DNA of 64,000 nt. Source: Chryseobacterium sp. BGARF1 (GTDB taxonomy: Bacteria > Bacteroidota > Bacteroidia > Flavobacteriales > Weeksellaceae). Positions 2,378 through 55,450 of this stretch are shown piece by piece. The notes under the pieces are model-generated. The model did no database searches, was not told where the DNA came from, and worked only from the letters and a program-made list of their open reading frames with translations. The first letter of the stretch is position 1. The number at the start of each line of letters is the position of its first letter. The stretch covers positions 62,001-126,000 of the forward strand of contig NZ_LELA01000042.1 in assembly GCF_001677955.1 (NCBI RefSeq), written 5' to 3'. Both the position numbers and the translations under genes were made by a program.

Positions 2378-3109
2378 TTATGAATAAATTCCTCCGTTAA
2401 TATTAATAATTTCTCCTGTGATGTAAGAAGATTTTTTTGATGCTAAAAATGCAACCAAATCTGCCACTTCTTCTGCTTCACCAAATCGATTGGCTGGAAT
2501 CATCGTTTTCAATTCATCTTCGTTAAAATCCTGAGTCATATCTGTTTTGATAAAACCCGGAGCAACTGCATTTACCGTGATATTTCTTTTTGCAACTTCC
2601 TGAGCCAAAGCTTTTGTCGCTCCCACCAAAGCTCCTTTCGCAGCAGAATAATTGGTTTGTCCAGCCGTTCCTTTTACTCCGGAAACAGAAACCATATTGA
2701 TAATTCTGCCATATTTGTTTCTCAATAATTTTTGAATGAAGAAATTCGTCACATTATAGAAACCATTTAAACTTGTATTGATCACAGAATTCCAGTCTTC
2801 AATTGGCATCCACATGAATAATCCGTCTCTTGTAATTCCTGCGTTGTTTACGATAATTTCGACTACAGAATTTGGATTATTTTCCTGCCATTCATTTAAA
2901 ACTTTTTGAGTTTCTTCGGCATTTCCTACATCAAATTTAAGAATTTCTCCTGTAGAACCTAACTCTTCCACTTTCGCTAAAGTTTCCTTTGCTGCAGCTT
3001 CATTAGAAGTATAATTAATTAAAATATGCTCAATTTTCTCTTCTGCCAGTTTTATACAGATGGCTCTTCCAATTCCTCGGGAACCGCCTGTTACAATTGC
3101 ACATTTCAT
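2378..3109 (-). CDS. 3-oxoacyl-ACP reductase (FabG-like SDR) of the flexirubin locus
   Basis: A 243-residue short-chain dehydrogenase. The NADP(H) loop TGGSRGIG begins at residue 7, NNAG is at 88-91, the active-site asparagine is near 115, the serine near 141-143, and the YxxxK pair is Tyr154/Lys158. C-terminal ITGEIININGG is the usual FabG ending. It would reduce the keto group left by the neighbouring condensing enzyme before dehydration to the polyene double bond. It is transcribed after the tyrosine ammonia-lyase gene, separated by about 70 nt that contains a two-hairpin repeat. A dehydratase is not in the window and may lie to the left. Confidence 0.93.
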   Translation of the reverse strand: MKCAIVTGGSRGIGRAICIKLAEEKIEHILINYTSNEAAAKETLAKVEELGSTGEILKFDVGNAEETQKVLNEWQENNPNSVVEIIVNNAGITRDGLFMWMPIEDWNSVINTSLNGFYNVTNFFIQKLLRNKYGRIINMVSVSGVKGTAGQTNYSAAKGALVGATKALAQEVAKRNITVNAVAPGFIKTDMTQDFNEDELKTMIPANRFGEAEEVADLVAFLASKKSSYITGEIININGGIYS

Positions 3110-3134: not shown

Positions 3135-3180
3135 AATAGGATTTCATCCTATTCTTTGTTAAATCGTCCTTTCAGGACTT
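3135..3180. repeat. two-hairpin dispersed repeat, copy 1 (second copy at 50882-50927)
   Basis: The element holds two adjacent inverted repeats: AATAGGAT-TTC-ATCCTATT followed by GTCCT-TTC-AGGAC, joined by a linker ending in TTAAATCG. It fills most of the gap between the TAL and FabG genes, so it would be part of the operon transcript. The copy at 50882-50927 differs at seven of 46 positions, and four of those changes form two compensating base pairs, which argues that the folded form is conserved. The function is unknown. Confidence 0.8.
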
Positions 3181-4703
3181 TAGAAATGTTTTAAATATTT
3201 TTTCACTTCCTCCAAATAAGGATACATCACCATATCATTTGAAAATGCAGGAATAATTTTTCTGATCTCATCGTACAATTCTTTTGTTTTTGATGAAATT
3301 TGATCTTGGTAACCCAGGTATTCTATAGCCTGAACAACAGTAATCGCTTCAATAGCCAAAACTTCAAAAGCGTTTTCAATTACTTTTCTGCAAATCACCG
3401 CTGCATTGGTTCCCATACTTACAATATCCTGATTATCATTATTATTAGGAATACTGTGAACATACATTGGGTTCGACAACATCTGACTTTCTGCCGTTGT
3501 GGAAGTTGCCGTAAACTGAACACCCTGCATCCCGAAATTAAATCCTAATTTACCTAAATTAACAAATGGAGGTAAAATTTCGTTTATTTTTGAATTTAAA
3601 AGATAATTCAATTGTCTTTCAGCCAACATGGTCAACTTCGTTACAACAATCTTCAACTTATCCATTTCCAAAGAAATATAATCTCCGTGGAAATTTCCAC
3701 CATGATAAACATGTTGATCTTTTACATTGATAATTGGATTATCGTTCGCTGAATTGATCTCATTTTCCAACACTTTTTCAGTGTATTCTAAAGTATCTAA
3801 AACCGGACCTAAAATCTGAGGAACACATCTTAAAGAATAATATTCCTGTACTTTTTCTTTGAAAACCTTTTCCTGTTCTTCAAAGTGAGTATATAAATGG
3901 TCTGCTCTTTTTCTGATCAATTTACTGTCAGATAAATGATCACGCATTTTTTCTGCAATTTTCTGCTGACCTGCGTGAAGCTTTGTTCCATTCAATACTT
4001 CTGAAAAATGGTCATCATATGCCTGAACAATTTCGTTAATGGCACAAGATAGTTTTAATGAAATATCAGTTAATTGATTGGCTTTATACGCATTAACAAC
4101 ACCTATTCCAGTCATAACAGAAGTTCCGTTCATTAAGGCTAAACCTTCTCTTATTTCTACCTGAATTGGCTCTAAACCTTCAATTCCAAAAACTTCTTTG
4201 GTTGATCTTCTGTCACCTTTATAAAAAACTTCGCCTTCACCAATTAAAACTAAAGCCAAGTGCGCCAATTGCACCAAATCACCACTTGCTCCAACACCTC
4301 CGTGTTCAAAAATAAGCGGTGTAATGTTTCTGTTAATTAATTCTTTAAGTAAATTTACTACAGATTCATGAACTCCGGAATTCCCTAATGATAGTGTATT
4401 TAATCTTGCTAACATACAAGCTTTTACCTCATCAGCAGGAAGTGGATTTCCGATACCCGAAGAATGGCTTCTGATAAGATTATACTGAAGTTGGTGTGTA
4501 TCTTCATCACTGATCTTAAATTGCGCCATTGGCCCAAAACCCGTATTCACACCATAAATTACTTTATTTTTTGAAAATTCCTTTAGAAAAGAAAAGCTCT
4601 CATTCACCCTCTGGAGAAGTGTTAGATCTAATTCAATGCTTTCATTTTCAATAATAATTCTCTGAAAATCTCTCAGTTCTAAAAAGTTATTTATTTTCAT
4701 CAA
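3180..4703 (-). CDS. tyrosine ammonia-lyase (aromatic amino acid ammonia-lyase family)
   Basis: A 507-residue MIO-type lyase. ASG at residues 139-141, within GGVGASGDLVQLAHL, is the tripeptide that cyclises to the MIO electrophile, and Tyr50 in YGVNTGFG is the catalytic tyrosine. The sequence closely resembles the Flavobacterium johnsoniae tyrosine ammonia-lyase as I remember it, including LQYNLIRSHSSG around residues 72-83. The expected reaction is L-tyrosine to 4-coumarate plus ammonia, giving the aryl starter of flexirubin. Histidine ammonia-lyase is the alternative, but no hut genes are nearby and the neighbours are polyene genes. It is first in the minus-strand run and shares a divergent promoter region with the flavoenzyme gene. 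Residue 2 is also methionine, so the exact start is uncertain by one codon. Confidence 0.88.
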   Translation of the reverse strand: MMKINNFLELRDFQRIIIENESIELDLTLLQRVNESFSFLKEFSKNKVIYGVNTGFGPMAQFKISDEDTHQLQYNLIRSHSSGIGNPLPADEVKACMLARLNTLSLGNSGVHESVVNLLKELINRNITPLIFEHGGVGASGDLVQLAHLALVLIGEGEVFYKGDRRSTKEVFGIEGLEPIQVEIREGLALMNGTSVMTGIGVVNAYKANQLTDISLKLSCAINEIVQAYDDHFSEVLNGTKLHAGQQKIAEKMRDHLSDSKLIRKRADHLYTHFEEQEKVFKEKVQEYYSLRCVPQILGPVLDTLEYTEKVLENEINSANDNPIINVKDQHVYHGGNFHGDYISLEMDKLKIVVTKLTMLAERQLNYLLNSKINEILPPFVNLGKLGFNFGMQGVQFTATSTTAESQMLSNPMYVHSIPNNNDNQDIVSMGTNAAVICRKVIENAFEVLAIEAITVVQAIEYLGYQDQISSKTKELYDEIRKIIPAFSNDMVMYPYLEEVKKYLKHF

Positions 4704-8212: not shown

Positions 8213-8276
8213 GTTTTGGCTAAAGCCAATTTCGTCTGTCAAATTTGAAAGCGGGCTAAAGCCCGCTCCTATTGAT
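8213..8276. repeat. GCTAAAGC hairpin repeat, copy 1 (second copy at 48694-48724)
   Basis: Two small palindromes sit about 20 nt apart: TTGGCTAAAGCCAA at 8215-8228 and GCGGGCTAAAGCCCGC at 8251-8266, followed by TCCTATTGA. The second half recurs in reverse orientation at 48694-48724 with a variant stem and the same TCCTATTGA tail. The rest of the gap up to ileS (8277-8466) holds no gene; TAAATTTG at 8424-8431 is a possible -7 box for ileS, but I see no good upstream element. Confidence 0.7.
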
Positions 8277-20549: not shown

Positions 20550-20624
20550 ATTATTCTTTGTATTTTTAAATTAAAAATGTGAAGAAAAAATGAATAATTG
20601 CCCGGAAATGCTAAAATAGAATTA

Positions 20625-20677
20625 CTGTTTTAGCATTTTTTTAGAGAGGTTGCAATCAGGTCAAATTTTTCCTCGTT
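20625..20677 (-). promoter_or_regulatory. SAM-II-type riboswitch aptamer in the metK leader
   Basis: On the complement, the stem GAGG/CCTC (20670-20673 and 20646-20649) encloses a loop whose ATTTGACCTGATTGCAA matches the SAM-II core TTTnACCnnATTGCAA. It is followed by an A-rich linker and GCTAAAACAG, the conserved GCTAAA strand of the SAM-II pseudoknot. I compared it with the metX env87 aptamer from memory. It begins about 13 nt after the promoter -7 box. Immediately downstream, TTTTAGCATTT (20608-20618) can pair with AAATGCTAAAA, giving a hairpin that would compete with the ligand-bound fold. Confidence 0.78.
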
Positions 20678-20689
20678 AATAAACGTCTG

Positions 20690-32304: not shown

Positions 32305-34437
32305 TTACTGAATTTTCCAGCTAATCCCAAACATAAAATTAGTTCCTGCCTGAGAAAAATAAACCGGACCATTGTAAACATATCCGTTGTTTACATATTT
32401 CTGATTAAAAATATTATTCACCAAAAGCTTTAAAGCAACTTCATGTTTTGCAATTTTAAAGTCATACTGCGCATTAAAATCCGTAAGTAAATAATCATCA
32501 AGTTGCAAACTCTGAGTTTCTGTATTATCAAGATATTGCTTTCCGACATATTGATTCATCAAAGCAAAGTGGAAATTCTTAGTTGGATTGTATTTCAGGC
32601 TAAGATTGGCAATTAAATTAGGTGAAAATGAAATTTCAGTGTTCCCTAGCTCGGTAATCTCTTTTTTATTTTTAATTCTGAAATCAAGGTTTCTATTTTG
32701 GCTTATACTTACGTTTCCTGAAACCTCCCATTGTTTTGAAAGCCTTGCTAACGCTCCAATTTCAATTCCTCTTCTGTAACTTTTACCTGAATTGGTACGG
32801 ATAAATTCACCGATATTACTGATCTGACCGTTCAGAACTAGCTGATTCAAATAATACATATAATAAAGATTAGCTGTAAAAGCTACTTTTCCAAACTGTT
32901 TTTCGAATCCGGCTTCAAAATCATGAAGTTTTTCTGATTTTACGTCATTGTTTGATATTAAATCATCACGATTCGGTTCACGTTGCGCATGAGCATAAGA
33001 GAAAAATACTTTTCCGTTGCCTAATTTATAATTAACTCCCGCTTTTGGATTAAAAAACAGCCAGTTTTTATCAAGATTAGCGCCTTCTCCATCACCTTCC
33101 ATTAATATCTTTGTATCGTAATCAATATTTCTCAACTGAAGATCTCCGAAGAATTCAAAATCATTTACTTTAATTAAAGCTTTAGCAAAAGCAGCAGCCT
33201 CAGTTTTTACCGAACGGTTACGATAATATTCAAATTCATCAATATTTGGAAAATATACTCCGGTAACATTTCCATAATGCCTTCCGTAATATTGATTTCC
33301 TACTACACCAAAATTTAAATCTACATTTTCAAATTTCCCGTACAAGGTAGAAACCAAGCCATAGAAATCATTATTCAACCATTTTTTTCTGATAAAATCA
33401 GTTTGATTTACCGGAGAACCGTTTAATTCAAACACCGGAAGATTGTAATTGGAGTAATGCGTTGCATCTTCATCTTCTTCGTTTACTCTTACATAGTTTT
33501 CATAAAATCCTCTTCCTTTTGTGTAATGCAAAGTTGTTTCAAGATTCCAACGCTCATTGATATTTTGTTCCCATAAAAACTGATAATGATTTTGTCTGTA
33601 ATTATCGGTTTCGTTATCATAGAATTTTTCCTCTCCTGTAAAAAGGTCAGTATATTGACCAGAATAATTAAGCTTAGGATTGGTCTCCCAGGTTTGTCTA
33701 TCAATTCCATTCCAGGCTTGATACGTTTTTTCTTTTCCTCCAAAAGCCATGAAACGAAGTTTTGTTTTCCCTTCTTCAAATAAAGCCGTGAAATTGTAAG
33801 AATTTAGATTTGAAAACGCCCTGTCTATATACCCATCAGAATGAATATATGAATATCTTCCCATCACAGAAAGTCGGTCTTTCCAGAATTTACCAGAACC
33901 TACCTCAGCTGAATATTTATAGGTATTGAATGATCCGTAGCTGTCATCTGTTTTAAAATAAAATTTTTCTTCAGGCTCTTTAGAAATCACATTAATACTT
34001 GCTCCAAAGGCAGAAACTCCATTATTGGAAGTCCCGACTCCTCTTTGAATCACAATTTGTGAAGCTGAACTCGTAAGATCCGGAACATTCACAAAGAAAG
34101 TTCCCTGACTTTCAGAATCGTTGAAGGGAACGCCATTCATCATCACATTAATTCCTCTTCCTGCAACTCCACGAATTCTAAATCCAGTGTAACCAACACC
34201 ATTTCCGGCATCGGAAGTTGAGATAATTGACGTTTGATTTTTTAAGAGAATAGGTAGATCTTGTCCCAGGTTTCTACCGTCAAGATCTTTCTGAACATTG
34301 ATGATCTCTTTGGCAACAGGAAGTCTTTTGGTAAAGTTGACAGCTTCAATTTCTCTGATCTTCAGAGAATCATTATTTAGAGTTTGTGCAAAACTCAGGG
34401 AACTTGCGGTAAGTCCTAAAAAAAACAATCCTTTCAT
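32305..34437 (-). CDS. TonB-dependent receptor under TPP control, probable thiamine importer
   Basis: A 710-residue outer-membrane receptor. A signal peptide (residues 1-17) is followed by a plug domain beginning near PVAKEIINVQKDLDGRNLGQDLPILLKNQTSI, then a 22-strand barrel ending in an aromatic-rich C-terminus (NFMFGISWKIQ). No N-terminal carboxypeptidase-like domain is seen, so it is not a SusC-type receptor. A TPP riboswitch in the leader predicts repression by thiamine pyrophosphate, so thiamine or a precursor is the likely substrate. No SusD-like partner or inner-membrane transporter is adjacent. Confidence 0.93.
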   Translation of the reverse strand: MKGLFFLGLTASSLSFAQTLNNDSLKIREIEAVNFTKRLPVAKEIINVQKDLDGRNLGQDLPILLKNQTSIISTSDAGNGVGYTGFRIRGVAGRGINVMMNGVPFNDSESQGTFFVNVPDLTSSASQIVIQRGVGTSNNGVSAFGASINVISKEPEEKFYFKTDDSYGSFNTYKYSAEVGSGKFWKDRLSVMGRYSYIHSDGYIDRAFSNLNSYNFTALFEEGKTKLRFMAFGGKEKTYQAWNGIDRQTWETNPKLNYSGQYTDLFTGEEKFYDNETDNYRQNHYQFLWEQNINERWNLETTLHYTKGRGFYENYVRVNEEDEDATHYSNYNLPVFELNGSPVNQTDFIRKKWLNNDFYGLVSTLYGKFENVDLNFGVVGNQYYGRHYGNVTGVYFPNIDEFEYYRNRSVKTEAAAFAKALIKVNDFEFFGDLQLRNIDYDTKILMEGDGEGANLDKNWLFFNPKAGVNYKLGNGKVFFSYAHAQREPNRDDLISNNDVKSEKLHDFEAGFEKQFGKVAFTANLYYMYYLNQLVLNGQISNIGEFIRTNSGKSYRRGIEIGALARLSKQWEVSGNVSISQNRNLDFRIKNKKEITELGNTEISFSPNLIANLSLKYNPTKNFHFALMNQYVGKQYLDNTETQSLQLDDYLLTDFNAQYDFKIAKHEVALKLLVNNIFNQKYVNNGYVYNGPVYFSQAGTNFMFGISWKIQ

Positions 34438-34557
34438 TCTTATAAATTTAAAAATTTAATGGAATAAAAGGGGCGACTATATTTATAATCGATAAATTAT
34501 GATTGATAAGTGATTTAATTTATAGTTTATCATTTATCATTCATCAATTATAATGAA

Positions 34558-34630
34558 TGTTTCCCTAAACAGCATTACCCGTTCCAGGTTCATTGGGTAT
34601 AATCTCAGCCCCTATTGGAGCACCCCTTTA
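34558..34630 (-). promoter_or_regulatory. TPP riboswitch upstream of the TonB receptor
   Basis: On the complement, in order: AGGGGTGC, GGGGCTGAGATTATACCC and GAACCTGGAACGGGTAATGC, the THI-box core. It ends about 120 nt before the receptor start codon. The intervening sequence is AT-rich with degenerate GATAAATGATAA repeats and no obvious terminator, so control of translation is more likely. TAATTTCG (34641-34648, complement) is a possible -7 box. Confidence 0.95.
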
Positions 34631-34705
34631 TTTCAGCCGCGAAATTACTAAAAATATTTGAATTGAAATATTTTGAAATTATGATTGAAAATTCAACCAT
34701 AAAAT

Positions 34706-48693: not shown

Positions 48694-48724
48694 TCAATAG
48701 GAACGGGCTTTAGTCCGTTTTTTT
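48694..48724 (+). repeat. GCTAAAGC hairpin repeat, copy 2, doubling as terminator
   Basis: TCAATAGGAACGGGCTTTAG followed by TCCGTTTTTTT is the reverse complement of the 8251-8275 type (tail TCCTATTGA shared). The stem ACGGGC/GTCCGT here runs straight into a T-run, so the copy probably terminates transcription of the second barrel gene. Confidence 0.75.
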
Positions 48725-49719: not shown

Positions 49720-50838
49720 TTAAACTCCGCTATACACAGAATCCCAATCTTTCATTATTGGGTCGTAGCCTGCATTTTTAATAATATTTTTAATTTCCGC
49801 CATACTTCTTTCATCACTGGTTTCAAATTGTTCCAAAGATTCTTTGTCCACCGCATAACCACCTGGATTGGTTTTCGAAGCTGCACTCATTGCTGTTGCG
49901 CCTAAAGAAATAATATGATTTCTAAAATTTTCGTTTTCTCTTGTTGAAATAGAAATTTCCAAATCTTCATTCCAGATTCTGTACGCACAGATTAATTGGA
50001 GTAAATCTTTATCAGACATGATAAAATTGGGTTCAATAATTCCTTCTGCAGGTCTTAATCTAGGAAATGAAACTGAATACCTACTTTTCCAATATTGTTT
50101 TTGAAGATAATCGATGTGAAGTGCGTTGAAGAAGCTGTCTATACGCCAATCTTCCAAACCAAGCAAAACCCCCAATCCCATTTTATGAATTCCGGCTTTA
50201 CCAATTCTGTCGGGAGTTTCCAGACGAAAATTGAAATTTGACTTTTTTCCTTTTGGATGATACTCTTTATAAACTTCCTGATGATAAGTTTCCTGATAGA
50301 CCAAAACCGCATTCACGCCTGCTTCATGAAGTTCTCGATATTCTTCTTCCGACAAAGGCTGAACTTCAATAGAAATATTAGCAAAATATGGCTTTAACAA
50401 ACGAACAGCGTTCAGAAAATAATCAATTCCAACTATTTTATTTGCTTCTCCGCTCACCAACAAAACGTGATTTACCCCCATTGATTTCAAAACGGTAGCT
50501 TCGATCATCAATTCAGTATCAGAAAGTGTTTTCCTTTTAATCGAATTATCTAAACTGAAACCGCAGTACGTACAAATATTCTGACATTCATTACTCAGGT
50601 ACAACGGCGCATACAACTGAATGGTTTTCCCGAATCGTTTCTGAGTAAGTTGCTGCGTCATTTTCGCCATTAATTCTAACTTTTGAGCAGCAACAGGCGA
50701 AAGAAAGTTCAGAAAATCTTCTATTGTTTTATTCTTTTTCTGAAGGCTATTTTCCACATCAGACAATGTCACTTTTTCAAGCTTTGCTTTTACCTCATCC
50801 CATTGATATTGTTCAAAAAAATCTTTAAAACTTTTCAT
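49720..50838 (-). CDS. thiH: 2-iminoacetate synthase (tyrosine lyase)
   Basis: A 372-residue radical SAM enzyme. The [4Fe-4S] cysteines are in CQNICTYCGFS (CX3CX2C) around residues 83-93. It cleaves tyrosine to p-cresol and dehydroglycine, which feeds thiazole formation by ThiG. Use of ThiH rather than the oxidase ThiO means the thiazole route does not need oxygen. It follows thiG by about 100 nt that contains copy 2 of the two-hairpin repeat. The C-terminus NAGYDPIMKDWDSVYSGV closes the family's usual length. Confidence 0.95.
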   Translation of the reverse strand: MKSFKDFFEQYQWDEVKAKLEKVTLSDVENSLQKKNKTIEDFLNFLSPVAAQKLELMAKMTQQLTQKRFGKTIQLYAPLYLSNECQNICTYCGFSLDNSIKRKTLSDTELMIEATVLKSMGVNHVLLVSGEANKIVGIDYFLNAVRLLKPYFANISIEVQPLSEEEYRELHEAGVNAVLVYQETYHQEVYKEYHPKGKKSNFNFRLETPDRIGKAGIHKMGLGVLLGLEDWRIDSFFNALHIDYLQKQYWKSRYSVSFPRLRPAEGIIEPNFIMSDKDLLQLICAYRIWNEDLEISISTRENENFRNHIISLGATAMSAASKTNPGGYAVDKESLEQFETSDERSMAEIKNIIKNAGYDPIMKDWDSVYSGV

Positions 50839-50881: not shown

Positions 50882-50927
50882 GATAGGATTTTATCCTATC
50901 CTTTATTAAATCGTCCCTTCGGGACTC
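50882..50927. repeat. two-hairpin dispersed repeat, copy 2
   Basis: GATAGGAT-TTT-ATCCTATC, a linker, then GTCCC-TTC-GGGAC. Compared with 3135-3180, an A-T pair became G-C in the first stem and a T-A pair became C-G in the second, so both stems are kept. It lies in the thiG-thiH gap and would be in the operon transcript. Confidence 0.8.
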
Positions 50928-50940
50928 TTTTCTCTTTATT

Positions 50941-51717
50941 TTAATCAAACAAAAAAGAAGTCAGCGGACTTGATGCTTGTGCATGATTTCCAATAGCTCC
51001 CAAACCAGATTCAAAAGCTCTTCTTCCTGCAATTACGCCTTCTTTAAAAGCCAATGCCATATTTACAGGATTTCTTGCAACGGCAATTGCCGTATTTACC
51101 AAAACTGCATCAGCTCCCATTTCCATGGCTTTTGCGGCATCAGAAGGTGCACCAATTCCAGCATCAACAACAACGGGAACATTACTTTGGGCAATAATAA
51201 TTTCTAAAAAATCTAAAGTTCTTAACCCTTTATTCGTCCCAATCGGCGCTCCCAAAGGCATAACAACGGCTGTTCCTACATCTTCGAGACGTTTACACAA
51301 AACTGGGTCTGCATGGATGTAAGGCATTACGATAAATCCTAATTTTGCCAATTCTTCTGTTGCATACAACGTTTCAATTGGATCAGGTAACAAATATTTT
51401 GGATCCGGATGAATTTCAAGTTTTACCCAATTGGTTTCCAAGGCTTCTCTTGCCAATTGTGCTGCTAAAACCGCTTCTTTGGCAGTTCTTGCTCCTGAAG
51501 TATTGGGTAAAAGGTGAGATTTTGTAGGTTTTAAAGCATTTAACAAATCATCTTCTGAAGATTGAGAATCGATTCTTTTTAAAGCCATTGTCACCAGTTC
51601 ACTTCCAGAAGCGATGATGGAGTCGGTCATTTCTGAAAGATCTCCAAATTTCCCGGTTCCTAAAAACAGTCTCGATTCGAAAGTTCTGTCTGCTATAATT
51701 AATGGTTGATTGTTCAT
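50941..51717 (-). CDS. thiG: thiazole synthase
   Basis: A 258-residue TIM barrel that assembles the thiazole phosphate from 1-deoxyxylulose 5-phosphate, dehydroglycine and ThiS thiocarboxylate. The Schiff-base lysine is expected in [15 protein letters not shown] around residues 98-112. [13 protein letters not shown] (around 178-190) and [28 protein letters not shown] (around 207-234) are conserved phosphate-binding loops. The gene starts inside the thiE stop (four-base overlap), typical of coupled genes. Confidence 0.97.
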
Positions 51718-54964: not shown

Positions 54965-55037
54965 TCCTAAATTTTAAAATACACTTTAGGAATGCCCATC
55001 ATTGTACAATAGAATGTACAGCAAAGTCATCTCACTT

Positions 55038-55114
55038 TTTCCTACGCTAGTATGATCTAGAAATCAGGTTCAAAGGGTAAAGTCTCAGCCTGTTTTGTCA
55101 ACAGACACCCCTAA
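55038..55114 (-). promoter_or_regulatory. TPP riboswitch of the thi operon
   Basis: On the complement, in order: AGGGGTGTC, GGCTGAGACTTTACCC, TTGAACCTGATTTCTAGATC and ACTAGCGTAGG, the complete THI-box. Downstream, TGTACATTCTATTGTACA (54999-55016 on the plus strand as its complement) can form a small hairpin, and thiS starts at 54964. Regulation at translation or at that hairpin is possible. Confidence 0.97.
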
Positions 55115-55122
55115 AGTTGCGA

Positions 55123-55350: not shown

Positions 55351-55450
55351 ACCTAGCCCCGATTGTAACGGCATCCTTTTGAGTTGCGGCGGAGCGAAGC
55401 GGAGCCGTAACCCAAAAGATATAGTGGAAAGCGGGAAAAAGCTCCTAAAA
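55351..55450. ncRNA. structured 100-nt intergenic element, possible Flavo-1-like RNA or dispersed repeat
   Basis: This GC-richer stretch stands out from AT-rich flanks. It begins AGCCCCG and ends CGGGAAAAAGCTCC, with a central long hairpin: CCTTTTGAGTTGCGGC and GCCGTAACCCAAAAG pair around GGAGCGAAGCGGA. I recall many near-identical copies in flavobacterial genomes and a Flavobacteria-specific RNA motif of this general kind; the equivalence is unverified. Nothing in it codes. No promoter is evident. Confidence 0.5.

Follow-up and report, generated by a model that had tools for sequence, protein, structure and literature searches.

RAYT (TnpA-REP) transposases and their REP sequences (REPtrons, REPINs) combine a vertically kept HUH/Y1 gene with inverted hairpin repeats on both sides and with hairpin repeats scattered between genes. 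E. coli TnpA-REP and IS608 TnpA recognise a folded single strand (PMC8266576); in the accessible parts of that source we found no mention of Bacteroidetes. Among the Y1 enzymes, a survey assigns the signature Y...Q..HH to subclass 1.2, for which its available sections give NH/DH[IV]H and WQ motifs, about 150 aa, low copy number and occurrence in Bacteroidetes, with no REP and generally no typical terminal structures (PMC6006769). CGTC-tagged REPs are short dispersed palindromes with an unpaired tag before a stem of 8-9 bp and a CCA-like tail (PMC3733652, excerpted text). RayT genes have been named in Chryseobacterium, where the accessible passages discuss them by their position near another gene and not by flanking repeats (PMC11194056). 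The Rfam family Acido-Lenti-1 (RF01687), typed there as an sRNA gene, was attributed to Acidobacteria and Lentisphaerae (PMC2864571), was still little known and guessed to be regulatory in 2026 (PMC13298647), and has several reported copies in a Vibrio, a genus that lies outside the groups examined in this work (PMC10059132), as far as the available portions of these three sources go. A literature search that covered few subscription journals, mostly as partial texts, returned no paper tying Acido-Lenti-1 to a transposase and no repeat given to subclass 1.2.

Here we describe a two-hairpin repeat of Chryseobacterium sp. BGARF1 that we consider likely to be a REP-like, transposase-linked dispersed DNA element, RAYT-like in its working and distinct from the canonical RAYT systems. 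The window, which is the whole 64,000-nucleotide stretch of DNA that was analysed, holds two copies, with the following parts and neighbours:

3135..3180, + strand: element copy 1; own covariance model 79.4 bits; RF01687 31.7 bits, cut-off 37
3135-3153: hairpin 1 of copy 1 (8 bp, loop 3143-3145), followed by the linker at 3154-3165
3166-3178: hairpin 2 of copy 1 (5 bp, loop 3171-3173), then a trailing T
50882..50927, + strand: element copy 2; own covariance model 81.7 bits; RF01687 32.0 bits, cut-off 37
50882-50900, 50901-50912 and 50913-50925: hairpin 1, linker and hairpin 2 of copy 2, then a trailing T
2378..3109, - strand: FlxB, flexirubin SDR reductase, downstream of copy 1; NF053542 413.7 bits, cut-off 340
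3180..4703, - strand: FlxA, flexirubin tyrosine ammonia-lyase, upstream of copy 1; NF053541 896.3, cut-off 700
49720..50838, - strand: thiH, downstream of copy 2; TIGR02351 530.1 bits, cut-off 380
50941..51717, - strand: thiG, upstream of copy 2; PF05690 351.5 bits, cut-off 23

The sequence-only reading had described two 46-nt copies with seven differences, four of them in two compensating pairs, and re-reading both copies gave exactly this. The mismatches lie at positions 1, 11, 19, 24, 36, 40 and 46; A-T is replaced by G-C at 1/19 and T-A by C-G at 36/40, and the remaining differences fall in a loop (11), in the linker (24) and past the second stem (46). The placement of both copies between minus-strand genes also holds, the genes then called FabG and TAL being FlxB and FlxA by NCBIfam; thiG matched no NCBIfam model and takes its name from Pfam. 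Both strands of both copies fold into 8 bp with a loop of 3, a 12-nt linker, and 5 bp with a loop of 3, with z of -3.8 to -4.7 (0/200 shuffles equal, DNA parameters), and the hairpin 2 half has 2 matches within the window against a shuffle mean of 0.00. No tRNA was found within the window. The window also carries SAM-II and TPP riboswitches above the Rfam cut-offs (20620-20680 and 55022-55122, both on the - strand), a TPP-like match at 34544-34637 (-) that scores 45.9, under the cut-off of 54.3, precedes the ORF 32305-34437 and is possibly a divergent TPP riboswitch, and a Flavo-1 RNA (55351-55442, +) whose apical loop contains a GC-rich insertion.

The unit belongs to a family. A pattern search returned 26 copies in the genome, with none for the reversed pattern, and a covariance model built from these 26 found 29 at E<=0.01 and 31 at E<=0.1; the search that the earlier reading had proposed thus yields about 29 copies. 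The pattern fixed part of hairpin 1 and the 5' arm of hairpin 2 up to its fourth base and left free the two pairs singled out in that reading, 1/19 and 36/40, which are doubly changed in 8 and 9 of the 26 copies. Genome-wide stems without covariation had been named as the outcome that would speak against conserved folding; the 26 copies instead score 0.216 against 0.093 in shuffles, the pair-type count alone not being above shuffles (213/500 reach it). Each unit consists of two unlike hairpins in fixed order, hairpin 1 of about 8 bp, a linker of about 8-14 nt, hairpin 2 of about 5 bp and a T, and the copies are dispersed, non-coding and nearly all intergenic. This general intergenic placing of the 26 copies accounts for the operon setting of the two window copies, which was correctly observed but does not point to a role shared by the flx and thi operons. 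Fifteen of the 26 are common to a sister genome (of the sister's copies, 27 were compared and 17 matched, one of them off-centre; L357, which had been misread at the transposase, was handled by hand), so movement is slow, and no transposition event came to light.

One unit stands on each side of a Y1 transposase gene, inverted and with hairpin 2 outermost. The gene, one of five Y1 genes in the genome, encodes 150 aa. On contig C224 its neighbours are trpF on one side and, on the other, an OsmC-like gene and then trpB; the contig holds five copies of the unit in all. On the trpF side the unit (L032 6332-6380, contig C224; L015) overlaps the predicted end of trpF and appears to supply its last codons. 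The protein retains both the HUH motif and the catalytic Tyr, and its YIKNQREHH, WQ and length fit subclass 1.2; all five Y1 proteins carry Y..NQ..HH. Against the NCBIfam IS200 model it scores 68.8 and passes the cut-off of 55, whereas against the RAYT model NF047646 it reaches 21.5 bits and fails the cut-off of 80. Among 31 relatives, the IS200 model matched 31 and NF047646 matched 14 (E<=0.001). The predicted fold of a 91%-identical relative, L206, has a pLDDT of 87.8, and its PDB matches are led by the IS608 and ISDra2 transposases; 4er8, TnpA-REP bound to a REP hairpin, is the last of the 30 matches at E<=0.001 (rmsd 3.3).

Like RAYT/REP systems, this one has a vertically kept Y1 gene between inverted hairpin repeats, scattered intergenic units and 4er8 among the fold matches, but its unit is made of two unlike hairpins and its protein fits IS200 and not the RAYT model. 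The GT[AG]G foot is absent from the consensus of sets A1, A5 and A6, and GTGG occurs within the stem of hairpin 2 in some variants from the phylum; on the foot and the family model together, we do not file the system as canonical RAYT. It shares the transposase fold and NCBIfam model of IS200/IS605 insertion sequences, although its dispersed units contain no gene and are much shorter than one. It matches subclass 1.2 in all the features listed above except that a repeat is present; with the Chryseobacterium RayT genes it has the genus in common. An identity with CGTC-tagged REPs was considered and rejected: CGTC does stand beside a stem, but GTC is paired within the 5-bp stem, and the tag is not conserved elsewhere, where GTC reads GCC.

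Inverted palindromes adjoin each of the five Y1 genes. At the Y1 gene on contig C44 they again take the two-hairpin form, but the inverted pair lies downstream and does not bracket the gene. The present unit brackets a single own Y1 gene, and the genome holds about 29 units. Two other repeat families matched their patterns 39 times (C41 family; reversed control 1) and 11 times (C34 family; control 0) genome-wide. Inverted copies of the C41-type repeat, CGGGCTAAAGCCCG followed by CTATTGA, flank the Y1 gene on contig C41, and two lie in the window (8252-8275, +; 48694-48717, -). That gene (L034 1785-2072) encodes 95 aa from its ATG, yet its open frame spans 155 aa, so the start codon may be a different one or the 5' end may have changed. 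A third kind of repeat, with palindromes built around CCGTAGGA or CCTACGGA, brackets the Y1 genes on contigs C34 and C81 (L035, L036) in inverted arrangement.

The arrangement at the trp operon is retained across the genus. Among the matches listed, the nearest named relatives of the trp transposase are from Chryseobacterium, and the 30 best-matching loci all occupy the same trp site (trpF and trpC adjoin in 30, trpB in 29), so the count measures retention and not 30 independent events. Inverted copies lie within 200 nt on both sides in 29/30 loci, two weak overlapping opposite-strand matches having been dropped by hand; at E<=0.02 only, the count is 28/30, and L092 rests on 13.7 bits. L085 and L074 have extra copies in other orientations, and the closest copy downstream of the L085 gene points in the opposite direction. 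Twenty-seven of the 30 transposase genes are free of stops; the Tyr is intact in all 27 and H-x-H in 26, L096 having Y-x-H instead. Median dN/dS is 0.068 (64/351 pairs with usable dS), so purifying selection acts on the gene. In 29 units 5' of the transposase gene (A6), pairing persists as the sequence changes (93.6% paired), and the covariation score is 0.216 against 0.095; doubly changed pairs are not above shuffles (149/500 reach it), and the other three covariation measures exceed shuffles or nearly so.

Copy number follows the transposase. In a genus sample of 98 genomes, 4 with 51-59% relatives being left out, all 34 with a relative of at least 69% identity hold at least 7 copies (median 16), against 16/60 genomes without a close transposase (median 2), 12 of which hold at least 10; these per-genome tests ignore relatedness. 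G038 and G083 were counted as having a close transposase on partial matches, and G090, with broken pieces at 63-71% identity, as lacking one.

Beyond the genus, a scan of named genomes gave at least 573 relatives of the transposase, of which 80 were kept for study, mostly from Bacteroidota. Inverted repeats in the flanks exceed the 99% shuffle level at 53/78 loci and are not above shuffle level at 25/78; pairing flanks from different loci gives a harsher control, because units are shared among flanks, and only 26/78 loci exceed its 95% level. A mechanical scan for the layout in the expected sense succeeded in 33/79 upstream and 37/79 downstream flanks, against 16 and 18 of 79 in the opposite sense and 0.1-0.3% of shuffles, and 15/78 loci have it on both sides. 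When segments were anchored on hairpin 2, hairpin 1 of at least 6 bp was present in 68/111 (3.2% in shuffles), and in 43/86 outside L206-L218; there are 49 distinct arm sequences at 49/80 loci, and no such segment at 31/80. The 65 units picked by eye from these 111 segments (A5, which leaves out 46) score 0.474 against 0.166, with 11/13 pairs doubly changed. At 29 further loci, whose genomes may overlap the A5 training species, the A5 model found units no more than 200 nt from the gene at 14 and on both sides at 8 (20 bits); under the same limits, the expected orientation was matched in 11 upstream and 11 downstream flanks, the opposite one in 1 and 4. The two-hairpin layout adjoins roughly half of the more distant transposase relatives sampled in the phylum, and it also occurs next to transposases of other families that share 50-60% identity.

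The same structure is already represented in Rfam. RF01687 aligns with both window copies end to end, over positions 1-46, on the + strand and with both helices; it differs in being typed as an sRNA gene and in scoring both copies (31.7 and 32.0) below its cut-off, while the trp flank unit exceeds it at 37.6. In the own genome there are 21 matches at E<=0.001, 3 of those listed above the cut-off. Across 198 genomes of the phylum, 42 have matches at E<=0.001 and 21 above the cut-off, with 0/14 in controls. The transposase (E<=1e-20) is present in 31/42 genomes with RF01687, and absent from the other 11, against 62/156 without (p 1e-4, computed ignoring relatedness). At its own cut-off, RF01687 finds the unit in 8/60 transposase loci tested, a count in which L246 and L253 look like one locus twice.

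Of 30 genomes compared at the thi spacer, 9 have it filled, 20 have a spacer of 9-12 nt and 1 has a long spacer without a unit; filled sites have about 70-100 extra nt with divergent edges and yielded no precise insertion boundary. Filling is patchy, some genomes at 88-89% identity being empty and some at 82-85% filled. Counted by hand, one-sided changes at the 9 orthologous filled sites number about 8 and compensating ones 2, so the structure seems to be only weakly maintained at individual host sites. Inspection by eye showed no FlxB-FlxA copy in the spacers of 29 other genomes, L133 and L141 carrying a different two-hairpin unit there; no clean empty site was obtained among these, the nearest relatives having an unlike 49-nt spacer.

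The orientation of the units is strongly biased. With a simple custom ORF caller, the 26 own copies fall into 18 codirectional antisense, 1 codirectional sense, 7 convergent and 0 divergent (16 antisense to 1 after merging pairs, p 0.0003). In codirectional spacers of other genomes the + strand is antisense to both genes in 21/21 (28 usable of 29 loci; the L124 unit was not located and the L107 strand was corrected by eye), giving 39/40 in one orientation, some sites being orthologous, and 0/54 in divergent spacers. Outside the genus the bias is weaker, 9 to 3, with 10/30 loci dropped, 5 for lying at a contig edge and 5 for falling within a called ORF. It is also weaker in the C41 family, whose 24 copies at 22 loci comprise 11 antisense, 3 sense, 7 convergent and 3 divergent, with inverted neighbours counted twice.

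This bias, together with the Rfam label and the suggestion in the sequence-only reading, invites an interpretation as an RNA element of operon mRNAs (processing, stability, attenuation) that has spread since hosts keep useful copies. A-C mismatches on the + strand, moreover, outnumber G-T by 7:3 (A1), 21:7 (A6) and 47:19 (A5), and were counted for an RNA reading since A-C on the + strand is G-U in mRNA; the excess fits selection or strand-biased C-to-T mutation alike. We regard this interpretation as improbable, given that pairs of units bracket a DNA transposase, that copy number tracks its presence, that one-sided changes dominate the thi site and that the bias fades outside the genus. Conserved folding, as first proposed, stands; on the choice between RNA and DNA left open there, the evidence favours a mobile-type DNA element with a single-strand-DNA transposase. 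To this DNA element may be added, without replacing it, the reading that the + strand is a terminator-like hairpin with a T run, such that orientation and survival reflect only the purging of polar insertions. On the + strand, copy 2 has both of its hairpins called as terminator-like, T makes up 57% of the 8 nt after hairpin 2 in the own copies, and the sense orientation is almost absent from codirectional spacers; however, copy 1 received no such call, T is richer before hairpin 1 (75%) and falls to 51% after hairpin 2 elsewhere in the phylum, and T-rich target strands would explain the pattern equally well. We find this addition plausible, though we would not yet adopt it.

It is very unlikely, in our judgement, that the transposase gene just happens to lie in a trp region rich in repeats while another enzyme spreads them. 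The five copies on the trp contig and the many-copy genomes without a close transposase speak for such a situation, but it fits poorly with bracketing kept in 29 of 30 genomes, with the same layout at 50-60% identical transposases of other families and with inverted palindromes beside each of the five own Y1 genes.

Taken together, we favor a transposase-linked DNA element. Like IS608 TnpA and E. coli TnpA-REP, the transposase would recognise its target as a folded single strand, and it would have cut and spread the units; recognition would select pairing over sequence and so produce compensating changes. The gene would have been inherited vertically and domesticated as RAYTs are, and dispersed copies would later change slowly. 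The fixed orientation probably results from removal of insertions that terminate or disturb operon mRNA, or from strand-specific insertion into T-rich strands; given its strength, there may also be a secondary RNA-level or polarity effect.

We advance a broader hypothesis only tentatively, considering it doubtful as it stands: Acido-Lenti-1 may be both the substrate and the footprint of a phylum-wide RAYT-like subclass 1.2 system, whose enzyme was tamed in the Chryseobacterium trp operon and whose oriented copies were adopted as operon-mRNA elements. The link would give a testable identity to a little-known Rfam family, would assign a cognate repeat to a transposase class that has none in the available sections of the survey (PMC6006769), and would add an example, beyond the GTAG-tagged RAYTs, of a tamed HUH transposase that has been retained together with hairpin repeats.
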